Positions 57,842 to 63,910 of a stretch of 64,000 nt of DNA are shown here, piece after piece. The notes beneath the pieces are model-generated. The model searched no databases. It was not told where the DNA came from and was given only the letters and a program-made list of their open reading frames with translations. Both the position numbers and the translations under genes were made by a program. Source of the stretch: Flavobacteriales bacterium. Lineage in GTDB: Bacteria > Bacteroidota > Bacteroidia > Flavobacteriales > CAJXXR01. Position 1 is the first letter of the stretch; each line of letters opens with the position of its first letter. Where the stretch lies: assembly GCA_025210805.1 (NCBI GenBank), contig JAOAQX010000005.1, positions 62,001 through 126,000 of the forward strand, written 5' to 3'.

Positions 57842-58825
57842 ATGGATATGAAAGCAGTTGTTGCCACAGGTTATGGTTCTCCAGATGTTTTGGAGTGTAA
57901 ATTGATTGCAAAACCACAACCAAAATCTAATGAAATCTTAGTGAAAGTAAAAGCCGCTTGCGTCACAAGAGCTGACACCATGATGCGTACAGGTAAACCA
58001 CTTATTGGTAGATTGTTTACGGGTTTGATAAAACCGAGCAAGTCTGTTCCCGGTGCTGGTTTTTCGGGAGTTATAGAAGCTGTCGGAGATCAAGTTAGCC
58101 TATTCAAAGTAGGCGACGAGGTATTTGGCGAATCTGCCAGTCGATACGATTGTCAAGCCGAGTATTTGTGTACCTCAGAAGATTCTTTGGTGTTAAAAAA
58201 GCCTGAAAATCTTGATTTTTCTGAAGCATCCACTTATGGGGATGGACCTGTTACTTCCTACAATTTTCTAAAGATATTGGGAGAGGTGAATGCTAGCAAA
58301 TCTATCTTAATCAATGGGGCTTCGGGGAGTTTAGGAATGGCAGCTATTCAAATAGGTAAATATTACGGAGCTCATATTACCGCAGTCTGTAGTGCCAAAA
58401 ACAAATCCTTGGTCGTGTCATTAGGAGCAGATGAAGTAATCGATTATCGAAAAACCGATGTATCAAAAATTCTTGAAAAATATGATATTATTTATGATAC
58501 AGTGGGAAATTTGAGTTTTTCGATGATGAAAAACCAATTGACCGATAAGGGAATACTAATGACCCCCGTTTTGGATTTTGGAATTTTGTGTTCCTCTATT
58601 TTGAGAAAAAATCCCAAGAAAAAAAGAGTAATTTTTTCTGCAACAGGACTCAAAAAAGATCGAGAATTAATTTTGTATATGCAGGAAATTGTCAAAATAT
58701 TTGAGGCAAGAAAATTAAAAACCATTATCGATAGACAATACCCAATAGAAAAGATCAGTGATGCCCACCGCTATATTGATACAGGGCGAAAAAAGGGGAA
58801 TGTTGTTTTGTTGCTTGGTAGTTAA
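57842..58825 (+). CDS. NAD(P)-dependent alcohol dehydrogenase, zinc-independent MDR type
   Basis: A 327-residue medium-chain dehydrogenase/reductase. The N-terminal catalytic part (MKAVVATGYGSPDVL, GAGFSGVIEAVGDQVSLFKVGDEVFGES) and Rossmann motif (NGASGSLGMAAIQIGKYYGA, about 158-177) are clear. The metal-binding Cys/His pattern of zinc enzymes is not evident, so it resembles the quinone-reductase branch. It has the normal length and ends at a stop after LLGS. A 37-base stretch of its 3' end is repeated exactly at 62066-62102, where the same frame would end LLPF-stop. The ATG may be 57842 or 57848. Confidence 0.87.
   Translation: MDMKAVVATGYGSPDVLECKLIAKPQPKSNEILVKVKAACVTRADTMMRTGKPLIGRLFTGLIKPSKSVPGAGFSGVIEAVGDQVSLFKVGDEVFGESASRYDCQAEYLCTSEDSLVLKKPENLDFSEASTYGDGPVTSYNFLKILGEVNASKSILINGASGSLGMAAIQIGKYYGAHITAVCSAKNKSLVVSLGADEVIDYRKTDVSKILEKYDIIYDTVGNLSFSMMKNQLTDKGILMTPVLDFGILCSSILRKNPKKKRVIFSATGLKKDRELILYMQEIVKIFEARKLKTIIDRQYPIEKISDAHRYIDTGRKKGNVVLLLGS
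58776..58812 (+). repeat. 37-bp direct repeat, left copy (within dehydrogenase 3' end)
   Basis: This sequence, beginning TTGATACAGGGCGAAAAAAG, is identical over 37 bases to 62066-62102. It encodes residues DTGRKKGNVVL of the dehydrogenase. The match stops abruptly on both sides. Confidence 0.95.
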
Positions 58826-58956
58826 TTGTTGTTTATTGATGCGATATTCTTGTGGTATATCTGATGCTAATTTTTTGATAGGAATAAGTAATACTATTTC
58901 AGCAAGTAATAGGAATAAGTGCATAAAATAGTAAATAATAAGGTGATAATATAAAT

Positions 58957-58988
58957 AAAGTTTATTGAAATTAATTTCAATAAACTTT
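58957..58988. repeat. 32-nt perfect palindrome near the cassette left edge
   Basis: AAAGTTTATTGAAATT is followed directly by its reverse complement, without any spacer (58957-58988). It lies 130 bases past the dehydrogenase stop in a gene-free gap of 343 bases (58826-59168). The gap also holds two copies of ATAGGAATAAGT (58878 and 58909). The palindrome could be a weak terminator for the dehydrogenase gene or a recombination or protein site. Confidence 0.75.
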
Positions 58989-59168
58989 AAGTTTAATCAA
59001 TAAAATCAAGGCTTGCCAATGATTTTACCAAGTATTTTTGACCATTAAACCCATTATTCGAACAGTAAAATATTTGAGTAATGATAGATAGTAAAAGCTT
59101 ATTCTGCTTTTCTTTCTCTTTAGAAAAGAGGAATAAAGCAATTTACACATAGTAATCTTAGTCTAAGT

Positions 59169-60662
59169 CTAGCTATTGTCTGTAGGATTTTCATCATTTT
59201 GTTTTTTTGATTCATCATCGCCTGAACTAACACCCAAAGCTTTCAAAGGACTAAATTTATAAAGCCAGGCCTTAGCTAGTTGCTTAGATGTTATTGGCTT
59301 TAAAAAGAAATTAATAGGTACACCACATTGACCTTCTATAGCTTTTTGAACATAATCATCAAATGCAGTCATCAATGAATTTGTATCAATAACCTTATTG
59401 TTTGCATTCTCAATTTGACCCAAATTGGATACAACACCAGATATGTAACTATTATTGAGTTGCATGAAGCTCTCTCCTGTACGAGCTTTAGCTGCATCAG
59501 AAGAAGTTGTATTAACGTCAGTATCAGTAGCACCTTGAATAGCTGCCAATTGACTCATAACTTCAGTTGCGGATGGCTTTAATGTAGAGACCGTTGTTTT
59601 AATTTCATTTGATTTTATTGAAGGAATTAGCCCCATTGTGATAACGCTAGCATGGGATTGAAGATTAGAAGTGCTCAACAGACTTTTAATTGAATCAGCA
59701 AATGAACCATCAACTCCAAATTTACCACTTTTAGCTGCAAGGAAAGAACCCATTTCAAAAGAAGCCTCAAGATCAAAGGATGTTGAAGAAGATTTTTGAG
59801 AGCTATTTGAATCTTCAGTTTTTAAGATATGAACCATACCTACAAAACTAGATCCGTTTGTTTGACCTGAAAGAATATGTATCCCCACTTTATCTGCATC
59901 CTTCCCTTGAAGGGCTTCATTCATTGATTTTTCGTCATCTGAATTGATTGGGCGATCTTTAACATAAACATTCCATGCCCTTATAGCTTTTTCAGGATCC
60001 AGAACGAAAGGAGCAAACATATCCGATTGTTTATGAGTACAATTGGCTGTGATAACAAGTGTTCCTTGAATGCTGTGTTTTGAAGTTTGAGTAAGAACTG
60101 TATGTTTTGCAGAGCCTCCTAATGACGCTCCATAACTTGGTCCAAATACAGAAGTTACTTGTGCAGAAATATAAGAAGCAATAGCATTAGAATGTGCTTC
60201 ATTTCCATCTTGTTCTTCTTCATTTCTAAAGTATTGGGCATCCATTATCATCGAATCCGAGGATAACCCCATCATTTTTATAGCAGATTTATTGTAATCT
60301 ATCGGACTCTCTACATTTTCAGAAATTTTGATCTGACCAGCAGCTTTTCTTGCTTCTTGTATTGTTTCCTGAGCAGCAACAGATTGTTTTGCATAATCGA
60401 CAGCGGCTTCTGTCATGGCTTTTTTTTGATTATCAATCTGATCAGAAAGTTTCTTTAATTCTTCCTGTCCAACTCCCATGTTTATCATTTCCTGCATTGT
60501 CATATCTAGACTTCGCTTTGATAGAATTAGGGAGTTAAGTTTTTGTTGAGCCAGATCAACTGGCTCTTGGGCAGTGGCTACATTTTTTAGTGCTTCAATT
60601 TTCTTTGGATCTACTACATTACCAAGTACTAAACTTGGGTCGAAAGGTATTGTTGTTGGCAT
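59169..60662 (-). CDS. Unrecognised 497-residue coiled-coil protein
   Basis: I do not recognise the family. The start MPTTIPFDPSLVLGNVVDPK has no signal peptide. Residues about 35-115 are helical, Gln/Glu/Lys-rich and predicted coiled coil by eye (KLNSLILSKRSLDMTMQE, EELKKLSDQIDNQKKAMTEAAVDYAKQSV). Residues about 165-330 alternate short beta strands with small residues (SYGASLGGSAKHTV, KHSIQGTLVITANCTH, FDLEASFEMGSFLAAKSGKFG). The region 330-430 is Ser/Thr-rich and the end is an acidic, hydrophilic tail (GDDESKKQNDENPTDNS). Few cysteines and many Ser/Asn/Gln suggest a soluble or secreted structural protein. A pore-forming or appendage role is only a guess. No immunity gene is obvious. It lies 3' of the GH25 gene on the same strand, with 268 bases between. 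Confidence 0.75.
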   Translation of the reverse strand: MPTTIPFDPSLVLGNVVDPKKIEALKNVATAQEPVDLAQQKLNSLILSKRSLDMTMQEMINMGVGQEELKKLSDQIDNQKKAMTEAAVDYAKQSVAAQETIQEARKAAGQIKISENVESPIDYNKSAIKMMGLSSDSMIMDAQYFRNEEEQDGNEAHSNAIASYISAQVTSVFGPSYGASLGGSAKHTVLTQTSKHSIQGTLVITANCTHKQSDMFAPFVLDPEKAIRAWNVYVKDRPINSDDEKSMNEALQGKDADKVGIHILSGQTNGSSFVGMVHILKTEDSNSSQKSSSTSFDLEASFEMGSFLAAKSGKFGVDGSFADSIKSLLSTSNLQSHASVITMGLIPSIKSNEIKTTVSTLKPSATEVMSQLAAIQGATDTDVNTTSSDAAKARTGESFMQLNNSYISGVVSNLGQIENANNKVIDTNSLMTAFDDYVQKAIEGQCGVPINFFLKPITSKQLAKAWLYKFSPLKALGVSSGDDESKKQNDENPTDNS

Positions 60663-60930
60663 GATATATATGTTTAATATATTCCTTACTCGTATGGCTT
60701 TTCAGGTTTCGCCCCGTTTTTAATTGGTTTCTGGACTCCATAAATTGGGTTTATCACATGGGAAGTCAACCCAGTGGCTTTCGCGGACTTTCTTGGAATT
60801 TATAAATGAAACATTTTTTTTTATTTAGAGAGTACCGATTACTTTCTAAATATTCTCTTATTACCTGTCTGAAAATGATTTGTAACAATTTGTAAGCTAT
60901 TGTCTATCTGTAAATTAATGTTGTGTGGAG

Positions 60931-61692
60931 TTAATTCTTGATATTACTATTTTTTATAAACTCCTTAAATTCTATTTGATTACCATTGAAGATATCAAAA
61001 TCATTCTTTTTATTATTTATTTTGTATGTCTCCGACTTTTGCCAAATTGTCCAACCTTTTTGTGCCCATGCTTTTGGTAGATTCGGTTTTTTTGCTTGAC
61101 TATAATTTGCAATCCACAGGTTGTAATCTGAAAAATTTGAATGGTTTAGGTACCTGTTTCCAACATTAAGATCAGTGTAAATTATTGGTTTACGATTTGA
61201 TTGTGTTTCAATATGATTAAGAAACAATAAAAGTGCGGATTGTACTTTTTCAACTGATTGTGATTCATTAATTCCTCCTTCCTCAAAATCAACTATAGGT
61301 GGAATATCCATAGAGTCAATATTATCTATAGTCTTCAGGAAAAATTTTGCCTGTGTTATTGGGTCGTCTTTTGTTATATAAAAATGATAGGCTCCTCGAA
61401 TGAAGCCGTGATCTTTTATCATTCTCCAGTTTCTTGTGAATTTCGGGTCGATATATGTCATGCCCTCGGTTGCTTTACAGATAATAAAATCCAAACTGTC
61501 ACTATTTTTAATAACCACATCAATTTCATTATTTTGATGATGAGATATATCTATTCCATAAATATTAGGTTTTATATTTGTCACTTTGACGTTTGGTTTG
61601 TCATGGTTTTTGAATTCTGTCTTCATTTGCTCACATGATGAAAAAATGGTAATGAATATTATTGTGTTTAAGAGATGAATGTGTTTGTTCAT
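60931..61692 (-). CDS. GH25 lysozyme-like lipoprotein
   Basis: A 253-residue protein with a lipoprotein-like signal (IFITIFSSC, Cys20), so probably membrane-anchored outside the cytoplasm. The GH25 muramidase fold is marked by YGIDISHHQ, FIICKATEGMTYIDPKF, GAYHFYITKDDP, the catalytic-type PPIVDFEEG (Asp and Glu), KPIIYTDLNVG and NLWIANYS, ending WTIWQKS. It likely cleaves the MurNAc-GlcNAc bond in peptidoglycan. It lies inside the repeat-bounded cassette, upstream of the 497-residue gene on the same strand. Confidence 0.88.
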   Translation of the reverse strand: MNKHIHLLNTIIFITIFSSCEQMKTEFKNHDKPNVKVTNIKPNIYGIDISHHQNNEIDVVIKNSDSLDFIICKATEGMTYIDPKFTRNWRMIKDHGFIRGAYHFYITKDDPITQAKFFLKTIDNIDSMDIPPIVDFEEGGINESQSVEKVQSALLLFLNHIETQSNRKPIIYTDLNVGNRYLNHSNFSDYNLWIANYSQAKKPNLPKAWAQKGWTIWQKSETYKINNKKNDFDIFNGNQIEFKEFIKNSNIKN

Positions 61693-62065
61693 AATTTGTA
61701 CGTTTTAGTATTTCCCCTTTGCACAGAGAAAATAGCTCATGTATATATCAATTTTCAAAAGATGTTTAGATAACTAAAAACACTTGGTGTATGAGTTTTG
61801 TGTTTAAAAATATTTAGTATGTTTTTGATTATCATGGCTCTAAACTACAAAAGAAAACGCAGTAATCCAAAAAATGCAACATTAATTAATTATAAGAAAA
61901 ATATTACAGCTGTTGTTAACTTTTTCAATACCCACCATTTTATAGGGTAATCTGAATTCTCTAGCTTATACATATCCGCTATTTATCAGACTGTATTCTA
62001 TAAAAGAATATAGATCTTAGAATATGAAAAAATTGCAACTTAAATTTTTGTCATAGCATTGTACT
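61693..62065. other. AT-rich gap at the cassette right side
   Basis: These 373 bases separate the GH25 gene start from the right 37-bp repeat. I see no open frame, no hairpin of note and no remnant of the dehydrogenase gene upstream of the repeat. The GH25 promoter should lie here. Confidence 0.55.
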
Positions 62066-62102
62066 TTGATACAGGGCGAAAAAAGGGGAATGTTGTTTTG
62101 TT
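62066..62102 (+). repeat. 37-bp direct repeat, right copy
   Basis: Identical over 37 bases to 58776-58812. The bases after it (TTACCATTCTAA) continue the dehydrogenase frame to LLPF and a stop at 62110-62112, so this may be the original 3' end of that gene. About 150 bases follow before lpdA. Confidence 0.95.
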
Positions 62103-62255
62103 ACCATTCTAATAGCCTTTTTAAAAAGAAAAAAGCAATTGAAAAATGCTAAGAAGACCAAGTTCTACAGCCTCAAAATCTCAAAAAATATCCTTACATT
62201 CGCATATAAATGATTGGAAGAAAAAACAATCATTCAATTATCAAAAAAAAGAACA

Positions 62256-63644: not shown

Positions 63645-63669
63645 GTTCTCAATACAATTTTTATCTACC

Positions 63670-63910
63670 TGTCAGTTCGAGTAATTTCTTTGTAGAGCAG
63701 CGGAAAAGAAATTTTATCGAAAACCCATTGCATTACATCAAAAATCACTCGAACTGACAGAGGAATACAATTTTACCTTCCTATCAGTTCCGTCCCGATC
63801 CATCGGGAAGTGAATTTGCTGCAGAGCAACGAAAAAGAAGTAGAATCGTTGTTGTCAGTTCGAGTGAATTTACTGTAGAGCAACGGAAGTAAATTTTTAT
63901 CGAGAACCCA
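63670..63910. repeat. Composite dispersed repeat with GTCAGTTCGAGT units
   Basis: Three related units start at about 63671, 63783 and 63853. Units 1 and 3 share GTCAGTTCGAGT, then TGTAGAGCA(G/A)CGGAA, then TTATCGA(A/G)AACCC. Between them ACTCGAACTGAC (63747-63758) is the exact inverted copy, giving a 14-base inverted repeat with 63670-63683. Unit 2 has a small hairpin, TCCCGAT-CC-ATCGGGA (63793-63808). Related short repeats are frequent in flavobacterial intergenic DNA. Confidence 0.75.

Follow-up and report, generated by a model that had tools for sequence, protein, structure and literature searches.

Two genes between duplicate copies of a dehydrogenase 3' end: an insertion with an undescribed cargo family in a Flavobacteriales genome

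Introduction

In a 64,000-nucleotide stretch of DNA from a Flavobacteriales bacterium (positions 62,001 to 126,000 of contig JAOAQX010000005.1, assembly GCA_025210805.1; the whole stretch is referred to below as the window), the last codons of a dehydrogenase gene occur twice, and two genes lie between the copies. How did these genes come to be there? A preliminary description had read them as a cassette that entered at the 3' end of the gene in the manner of a tyrosine-recombinase element, possibly a satellite-like or decayed one. We conclude below that this is a real insertion, of a known but little-studied kind, carrying a protein family that has not been described; the results favor a general mode of DNA capture over a mobile element that brings its own integrase.

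Results

A 37-bp repeat of the dehydrogenase 3' end encloses two genes

The features of the locus are collected in Table 1. The two copies of the repeat were identical at 37 of 37 positions, with a spacing of 3290 and sharp edges, the 60 bases flanking them on each side being only 27-32% alike, i.e., at the background level; the exact repeat and the abrupt divergence reported in the preliminary description were thus confirmed. An exact 37-bp repeat is not expected by chance in 64 kb. Searches of the whole 3.12-Mb genome found the 37-mer at these two places only, and a 27-base core of it, with up to 3 mismatches allowed, also gave two sites and no third; a reversed control pattern gave 0.

The left copy reads DTGRKKGNVVLL, then LGS*, while the flanks joined across the insert read DTGRKKGNVVLLPF*, i.e., the right copy keeps the dehydrogenase frame to its own stop (GNVVLLPF*), as had been claimed. 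Between the copies are two complete minus-strand genes, of 253 and 497 codons, encoding a GH25 muramidase and an unassigned protein, respectively. Neither encodes a recombinase, integrase or transposase, in line with the earlier statement that the cassette contains no integrase. The palindrome within the insert is possibly a two-way terminator.

Table 1. Coordinates of the features of the locus (positions within the window)
Feature	Position	Strand	Basis or remark
Zinc-type alcohol dehydrogenase / quinone reductase, 327 aa; target gene, 3' end duplicated	57842-58825	+	Pfam ADH_zinc_N_2 1.5e-22, ADH_N 1.2e-11
Left direct-repeat copy, 37 bp	58776-58812	.	Final dehydrogenase codons
Inserted segment, 3253 bp, G+C 32.1% (window 33.6%)	58813-62065	.	
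Perfect 17-bp palindrome, TAAAGTTTATTGAAATT/AATTTCAATAAACTTTA	58956-58989	.	
497-residue protein, undescribed family also present in phages	59169-60662	-	No library-model match; relatives and alignments
DUF805 RNA (RF03081), 5' leader of the 497-residue gene	60678-60746	-	Covariance model 73.4 bits vs gathering score 51.1, full-length match
GH25 muramidase, 253 aa, lipoprotein-like signal (IFSSC)	60931-61692	-	Pfam Glyco_hydro_25 PF01183 9.6e-41; GIDIS and DFE motifs in alignment
Right direct-repeat copy, 37 bp	62066-62102	.	
PF stop, where the dehydrogenase probably ended before the insertion	62103-62112	+	Joined reading GNVVLLPF*

The pair formed by a regulator gene and the dehydrogenase gene was kept in two genomes of the same family, G001 and G005, with other genes downstream, and no gene of the 497-residue family was present behind the dehydrogenase relatives in either. 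The relationship is not close (about 50% identity between the window dehydrogenase and a same-family relative), and the target gene is not widely conserved (eight of 60 relatives). Dehydrogenase relatives stop 2-4 residues beyond GNVV/GNIV (with ends LVN*, LTV* and VRF*), and the joined end LLPF* is slightly nearer to these in length than the present end, LLLGS*. This hints that LLPF* may be the ancestral end, and to that extent favors the earlier proposal that the insert displaced the original gene end to beyond the right copy.

The same present-day sequence would also be obtained if the muramidase and 497-residue genes were old residents of the site, and the right-hand copy were a stray dehydrogenase end that arrived later by local duplication or gene conversion. 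We regard this as very unlikely: the reading frame continues through the right copy to a stop that suits the gene, the 497-residue family is absent from the same-family genome compared and from nearly all Bacteroidota sampled, and cargo at other loci is enclosed in the same way.

The cargo belongs to an undescribed family and is foreign to the host lineage

Comparison of the 497-residue protein with Pfam (above the cut-off), PHROGs, NCBIfam and PADLOC gave no match, and a sequence search of the PDB gave nothing usable. Models made with AlphaFold2 had a mean pLDDT of 44 (10 sequences) or 55 (32 sequences), and Foldseek comparison with the PDB and with viral models gave no match with E <0.001, so we make no claim about the fold. 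No signal peptide was evident.

The nearest bacterial relative (80% identity) came from a Calditrichota MAG; others, at 63-64% identity, were from Desulfoluna, a Verrucomicrobiales MAG and an Aquisalimonas MAG, and one Variovorax plasmid encoded a relative with 39.5% identity. No member was found among 50,697 phage records, but viral contigs of IMG/VR contained the family at 42 loci; on one of these contigs, a gene for a major capsid protein of the T4 type (Gp23, 4.3e-100) lies shortly before it. In a tree of the family, the window and Calditrichota sequences pair, and a large viral group is adjacent. We sampled 396 genomes from the order and 395 from the phylum, in overlapping sets, and the only carriers were the window's genome and one other, G205. 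The cargo thus reveals a well-conserved family of about 490 residues, at about 50 loci in phage contigs and bacteria, for which the libraries used hold no model.

The surroundings of the gene vary. In phage contigs (L024:7008-8486, L023:4865-6358, L041-L079) it occupies many different positions, including one near a tubulin-like gene within a capsid module. In Desulfoluna (L022:404-16127, L019:4130-13444) it stands amid genes for GH19 chitinase, glycosyltransferase-like and RING-finger-like proteins, together with a 797-residue protein that looks baseplate-like by eye, although without Pfam support; this is perhaps an injection-system effector cluster.

The second cargo protein contains a GH25 domain scoring 140.5 bits (curated cut-off 27), with the catalytic Asp/Glu motifs present. 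The GH25 family (PF01183) includes bacterial lysozymes as well as endolysins of phages. A GH25 protein also adjoins the 497-family gene in G205, with the gene order opposite, and on the Variovorax plasmid one lies no more than 2 kb from it. Both proteins have a hydrophobic stretch N-terminal to the GH25 domain; given these stretches, and the lipoprotein signal of the window protein, the GH25 partners appear to be envelope-anchored in all three bacteria. Because the pairing recurs in two separate branches of the family, it suggests a functional link between the two proteins, and ties the family to a cell-wall enzyme in three unrelated bacteria. The likely site of action of the cargo is the cell envelope, with the muramidase exported and anchored, and the 497-residue protein is probably its cytoplasmic or phage-like partner.

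The rarity of the 497-residue family in Bacteroidota, its presence in phage contigs, its Calditrichota kin and its pairing with GH25 elsewhere together establish that the gene is foreign to the host lineage and that the cargo was acquired. The earlier claim that the two genes entered as a cassette is upheld by this near-absence from Bacteroidota, and by the absence of the family behind the dehydrogenases of G001 and G005.

A DUF805 RNA suggests a possible kind of donor

The insert also contains a DUF805 RNA, which the preliminary description had overlooked. It sits between the two cargo genes, separated by 15 bases from the start of the 497-residue gene, and was the sole above-threshold match in the genome. 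No such RNA was found beside the relatives of the 497-residue gene elsewhere. Among Flavobacteriales genomes, 66 of 296 contained the RNA, before many unrelated genes (aquaporin, lipoproteins and small beta proteins, for example), so that its name understates its range. From this distribution the leader is a feature of Bacteroidota, which suggests that the cargo came most immediately from such a bacterium and not from a phage.

The same scar occurs at other loci

We scanned stretches totalling 1.99 Mb of the 3.12-Mb genome for similar scars, calling genes as open reading frames only, here as elsewhere in this study. At least five other loci, not noted in the preliminary description, bore this scar, and their repeats (48-71 bp), target genes and cargo were all unrelated. 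These were a MutS2-like gene (repeat of 58 bp, insert of 0.72 kb with a lipoprotein gene), a VanZ gene (48 bp including the stop codon, 1.47 kb with one gene), a DEAD helicase gene (71 bp with 1 mismatch, 0.83 kb with a zeta-toxin-like gene), a gene for a Cys/Met PLP enzyme (68 bp, 4.1 kb) and a DUF3841 gene (60 bp, 9.3 kb). A GNAT gene provided a case at a 5' end (repeat of about 190 bp, insert of 2.9 kb), in which the repeat copies differ in clustered changes. Repeat lengths across the loci therefore ranged from 37 to about 190 bp; the sequences were unrelated, and no core common to the repeats of different loci was seen by eye.

We then counted all pairs of repeats with exactly two copies, sharp edges, a length of 30-260 bp and a separation of 0.3-12 kb. 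Eight of the 21 qualifying pairs lay on a gene 3' end, compared with a permuted mean of 1.9, and 0 of 1000 shuffles reached eight. The test lends support but is not independent, because we fixed the criteria with the first cases already in view and counted the window locus as one of the eight. On inspection, two of the eight pairs lie within arrays of small genes that are themselves repeated, and these pairs may have arisen differently. As controls, 0.4 Mb of E. coli K-12 contained no qualifying pair, and 0.4 Mb of a genome from another family of the same order (G019) contained one, which was not on a gene 3' end. This G019 pair, a 154-bp repeat, was rejected as an example of the scar, because it looks like an hsdS-type shuffle of specificity genes with an integrase. 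A repeat at C3 190429/191508 was also dropped, its sequence resembling other intergenic repeats of the genome.

Some other repeat structures were seen. At G000:C7 118667/120651 (L178, L179), an insert of 2 kb containing a RhuM-like gene lies between two copies (98% identical) of a 43-bp terminator hairpin; it may be an insertion of the kind described here that used a terminator instead of a gene end. An array of small genes at G000:C28 13.8-31 kb (L152, L153) has dispersed intergenic repeats (CCGCTACCGCCAATTTCTAATTTCCCG...) between the genes and holds a protein that, by eye, is like a REP-associated transposase. A repeated unit (TTGACTAAAACCCACGCTGTTGCTTGCG...) separates the small genes of G000:C34 49-56 kb and 95-100 kb (L145, L147), rather like an array of orphan immunity or toxin cassettes. 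Within the window, positions 63656-63910, past a dihydrolipoamide dehydrogenase gene, contain intergenic and inverted repeats (TGTCAGTTCGAGT...) that recur on other contigs.

The scars at other loci bear on whether a tyrosine recombinase acting in trans could have moved a non-autonomous element, the 37 bp being its attachment core. Such elements usually leave just this scar, in which an exact core lies at the 3' end of a gene and the reading frame is restored, and the genome has eight matches to the integrase family; moreover, on the Variovorax plasmid an integrase gene (L038:13552-14571, PF00589, 5.7e-26) lies about 4 kb from the 497-family gene, beside the GH25 gene. However, all eight integrase matches are on other contigs, with none in or adjoining the insert, and the core has no further copy in the genome. 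The module occurs without flanking repeats, at other genes, in G205, in the Calditrichota contig L018 and in Variovorax, and a target with so limited a conservation among relatives would be an unusual choice for an integrase. Finally, repeats that are unrelated in sequence and length, at unrelated genes, would not be the work of one site-specific recombinase. We therefore consider a tyrosine-recombinase element, whether satellite-like or decayed, to be unlikely, and on this point depart from the preliminary description. The recurrence of the scar at five or more other places instead argues for a general mode of capture.

One such mode would be a double-strand break with a stagger of about 37 bp at this locus that was filled in and sealed around captured DNA, giving a target-site duplication of chance length with no need of homology. 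The varying lengths and unrelated sequences of the repeats are as expected from it, as is the finding that most loci have no similarity beyond the repeat. At the Cys/Met locus, however, a diverged similarity extends about 90 bases beyond the repeat and across the terminator, with a score of 47 against a null mean of 16.5 and no random pair scoring as high. Neither this continuation nor the enrichment at gene 3' ends is predicted by a staggered break, and no Ku gene was found in the genome, making classical end-joining unlikely. Such a break therefore seems to us quite an unlikely origin.

Discussion

The explanation that we favor, with moderate confidence, is that a homology-anchored, one-sided illegitimate capture, of the type termed "insertion with long target duplication", placed the cargo behind the dehydrogenase gene. 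By this account, a foreign segment of 3.25 kb carrying the anchored GH25 gene and the 497-residue gene would have been joined on one side by homology inside the dehydrogenase 3' end, while on the other side the far end of the incoming DNA would have made an illegitimate joint upstream of the crossover point. The stretch between joint and crossover would then be duplicated, yielding a direct repeat whose length, with one homologous anchor and an upstream illegitimate joint, is set by chance. The outcome would be one complete target gene and an intact downstream neighbor, and products with a duplication may have survived because both neighbors stay intact. In the empty site predicted by this model, the 37-bp sequence would occur once and the dehydrogenase would read on into TTACCATTCTAA.

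The diverged continuation at the Cys/Met locus fits a donor and a recipient allele of one gene end, and the clustered changes between the GNAT repeats point in this direction too. Likeness of this kind beyond the repeat was clear at that locus only, and none was seen at the window locus. In addition, 37 bp is short for RecA-dependent pairing, which counts against a homologous anchor here. The DNA probably arrived by natural transformation: the genome has a ComEC-like competence gene, within the window itself, although ComEC is widespread, so the gene does not show competence.

A broader reading is possible, although we advance it only tentatively: that the 497-residue family and its envelope-anchored GH25 partner form an undescribed, phage-derived two-part module, used in lysis, release or antagonism, for example, and that this genome gains such cargo by a recombinase-free capture that favors gene 3' ends. 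If true, it would explain much of the gain of small accessory genes in competent Bacteroidota. If capture is the right explanation of the scars, what looks like the scar of an integrase element at a gene end would be a trace left by ordinary capture of DNA, and a count of these scars would directly measure how often a genome gains one to a few genes without any mobile element.

How does the locus compare with known systems? The window protein shares with GH25 muramidases the full domain and the catalytic motifs; what differs is that the GH25 proteins seen here are lipoprotein-like or membrane-tethered and are paired with the 497-residue family in three bacteria. Islands moved by tyrosine recombinases, such as the dusA elements at a gene 5' end (PMC4482086) and the SGI1-like elements at the 3' end of trmE (PMC8409611), resemble the locus in that the insert is flanked by directly repeated copies of a gene end; however, they carry an integrase and use one conserved site, and neither was found at the window locus.

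In homology-facilitated illegitimate recombination there is one anchor, and foreign DNA is joined without homology at the other end (PMC3240628). It is known from laboratory transformation or conjugation and has been proposed for arrays of immunity genes (PMC5361080). One homologous anchor, one non-homologous joint and DNA placed next to the anchor gene would be common to both, but the present case is read from scars, and here it would be duplication, rather than deletion, that was kept by selection.

The closest counterpart is the insertion with long target duplication of Helicobacter pylori (Nobusato, Uchiyama, Ohashi and Kobayashi, 2000), as described in PMC1643837 and PMC3031569. According to those descriptions, the H. 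pylori inserts were found by comparison of two strains and are often restriction-modification genes. Common to both are inserts of one to a few genes with no transposase or integrase, long direct repeats of variable length, and several cases per genome. In the genome studied here, by contrast, the scars are read in one genome, the repeats lie on gene 3' ends, and the cargo consists of a muramidase pair, lipoproteins and a zeta-toxin-like gene.
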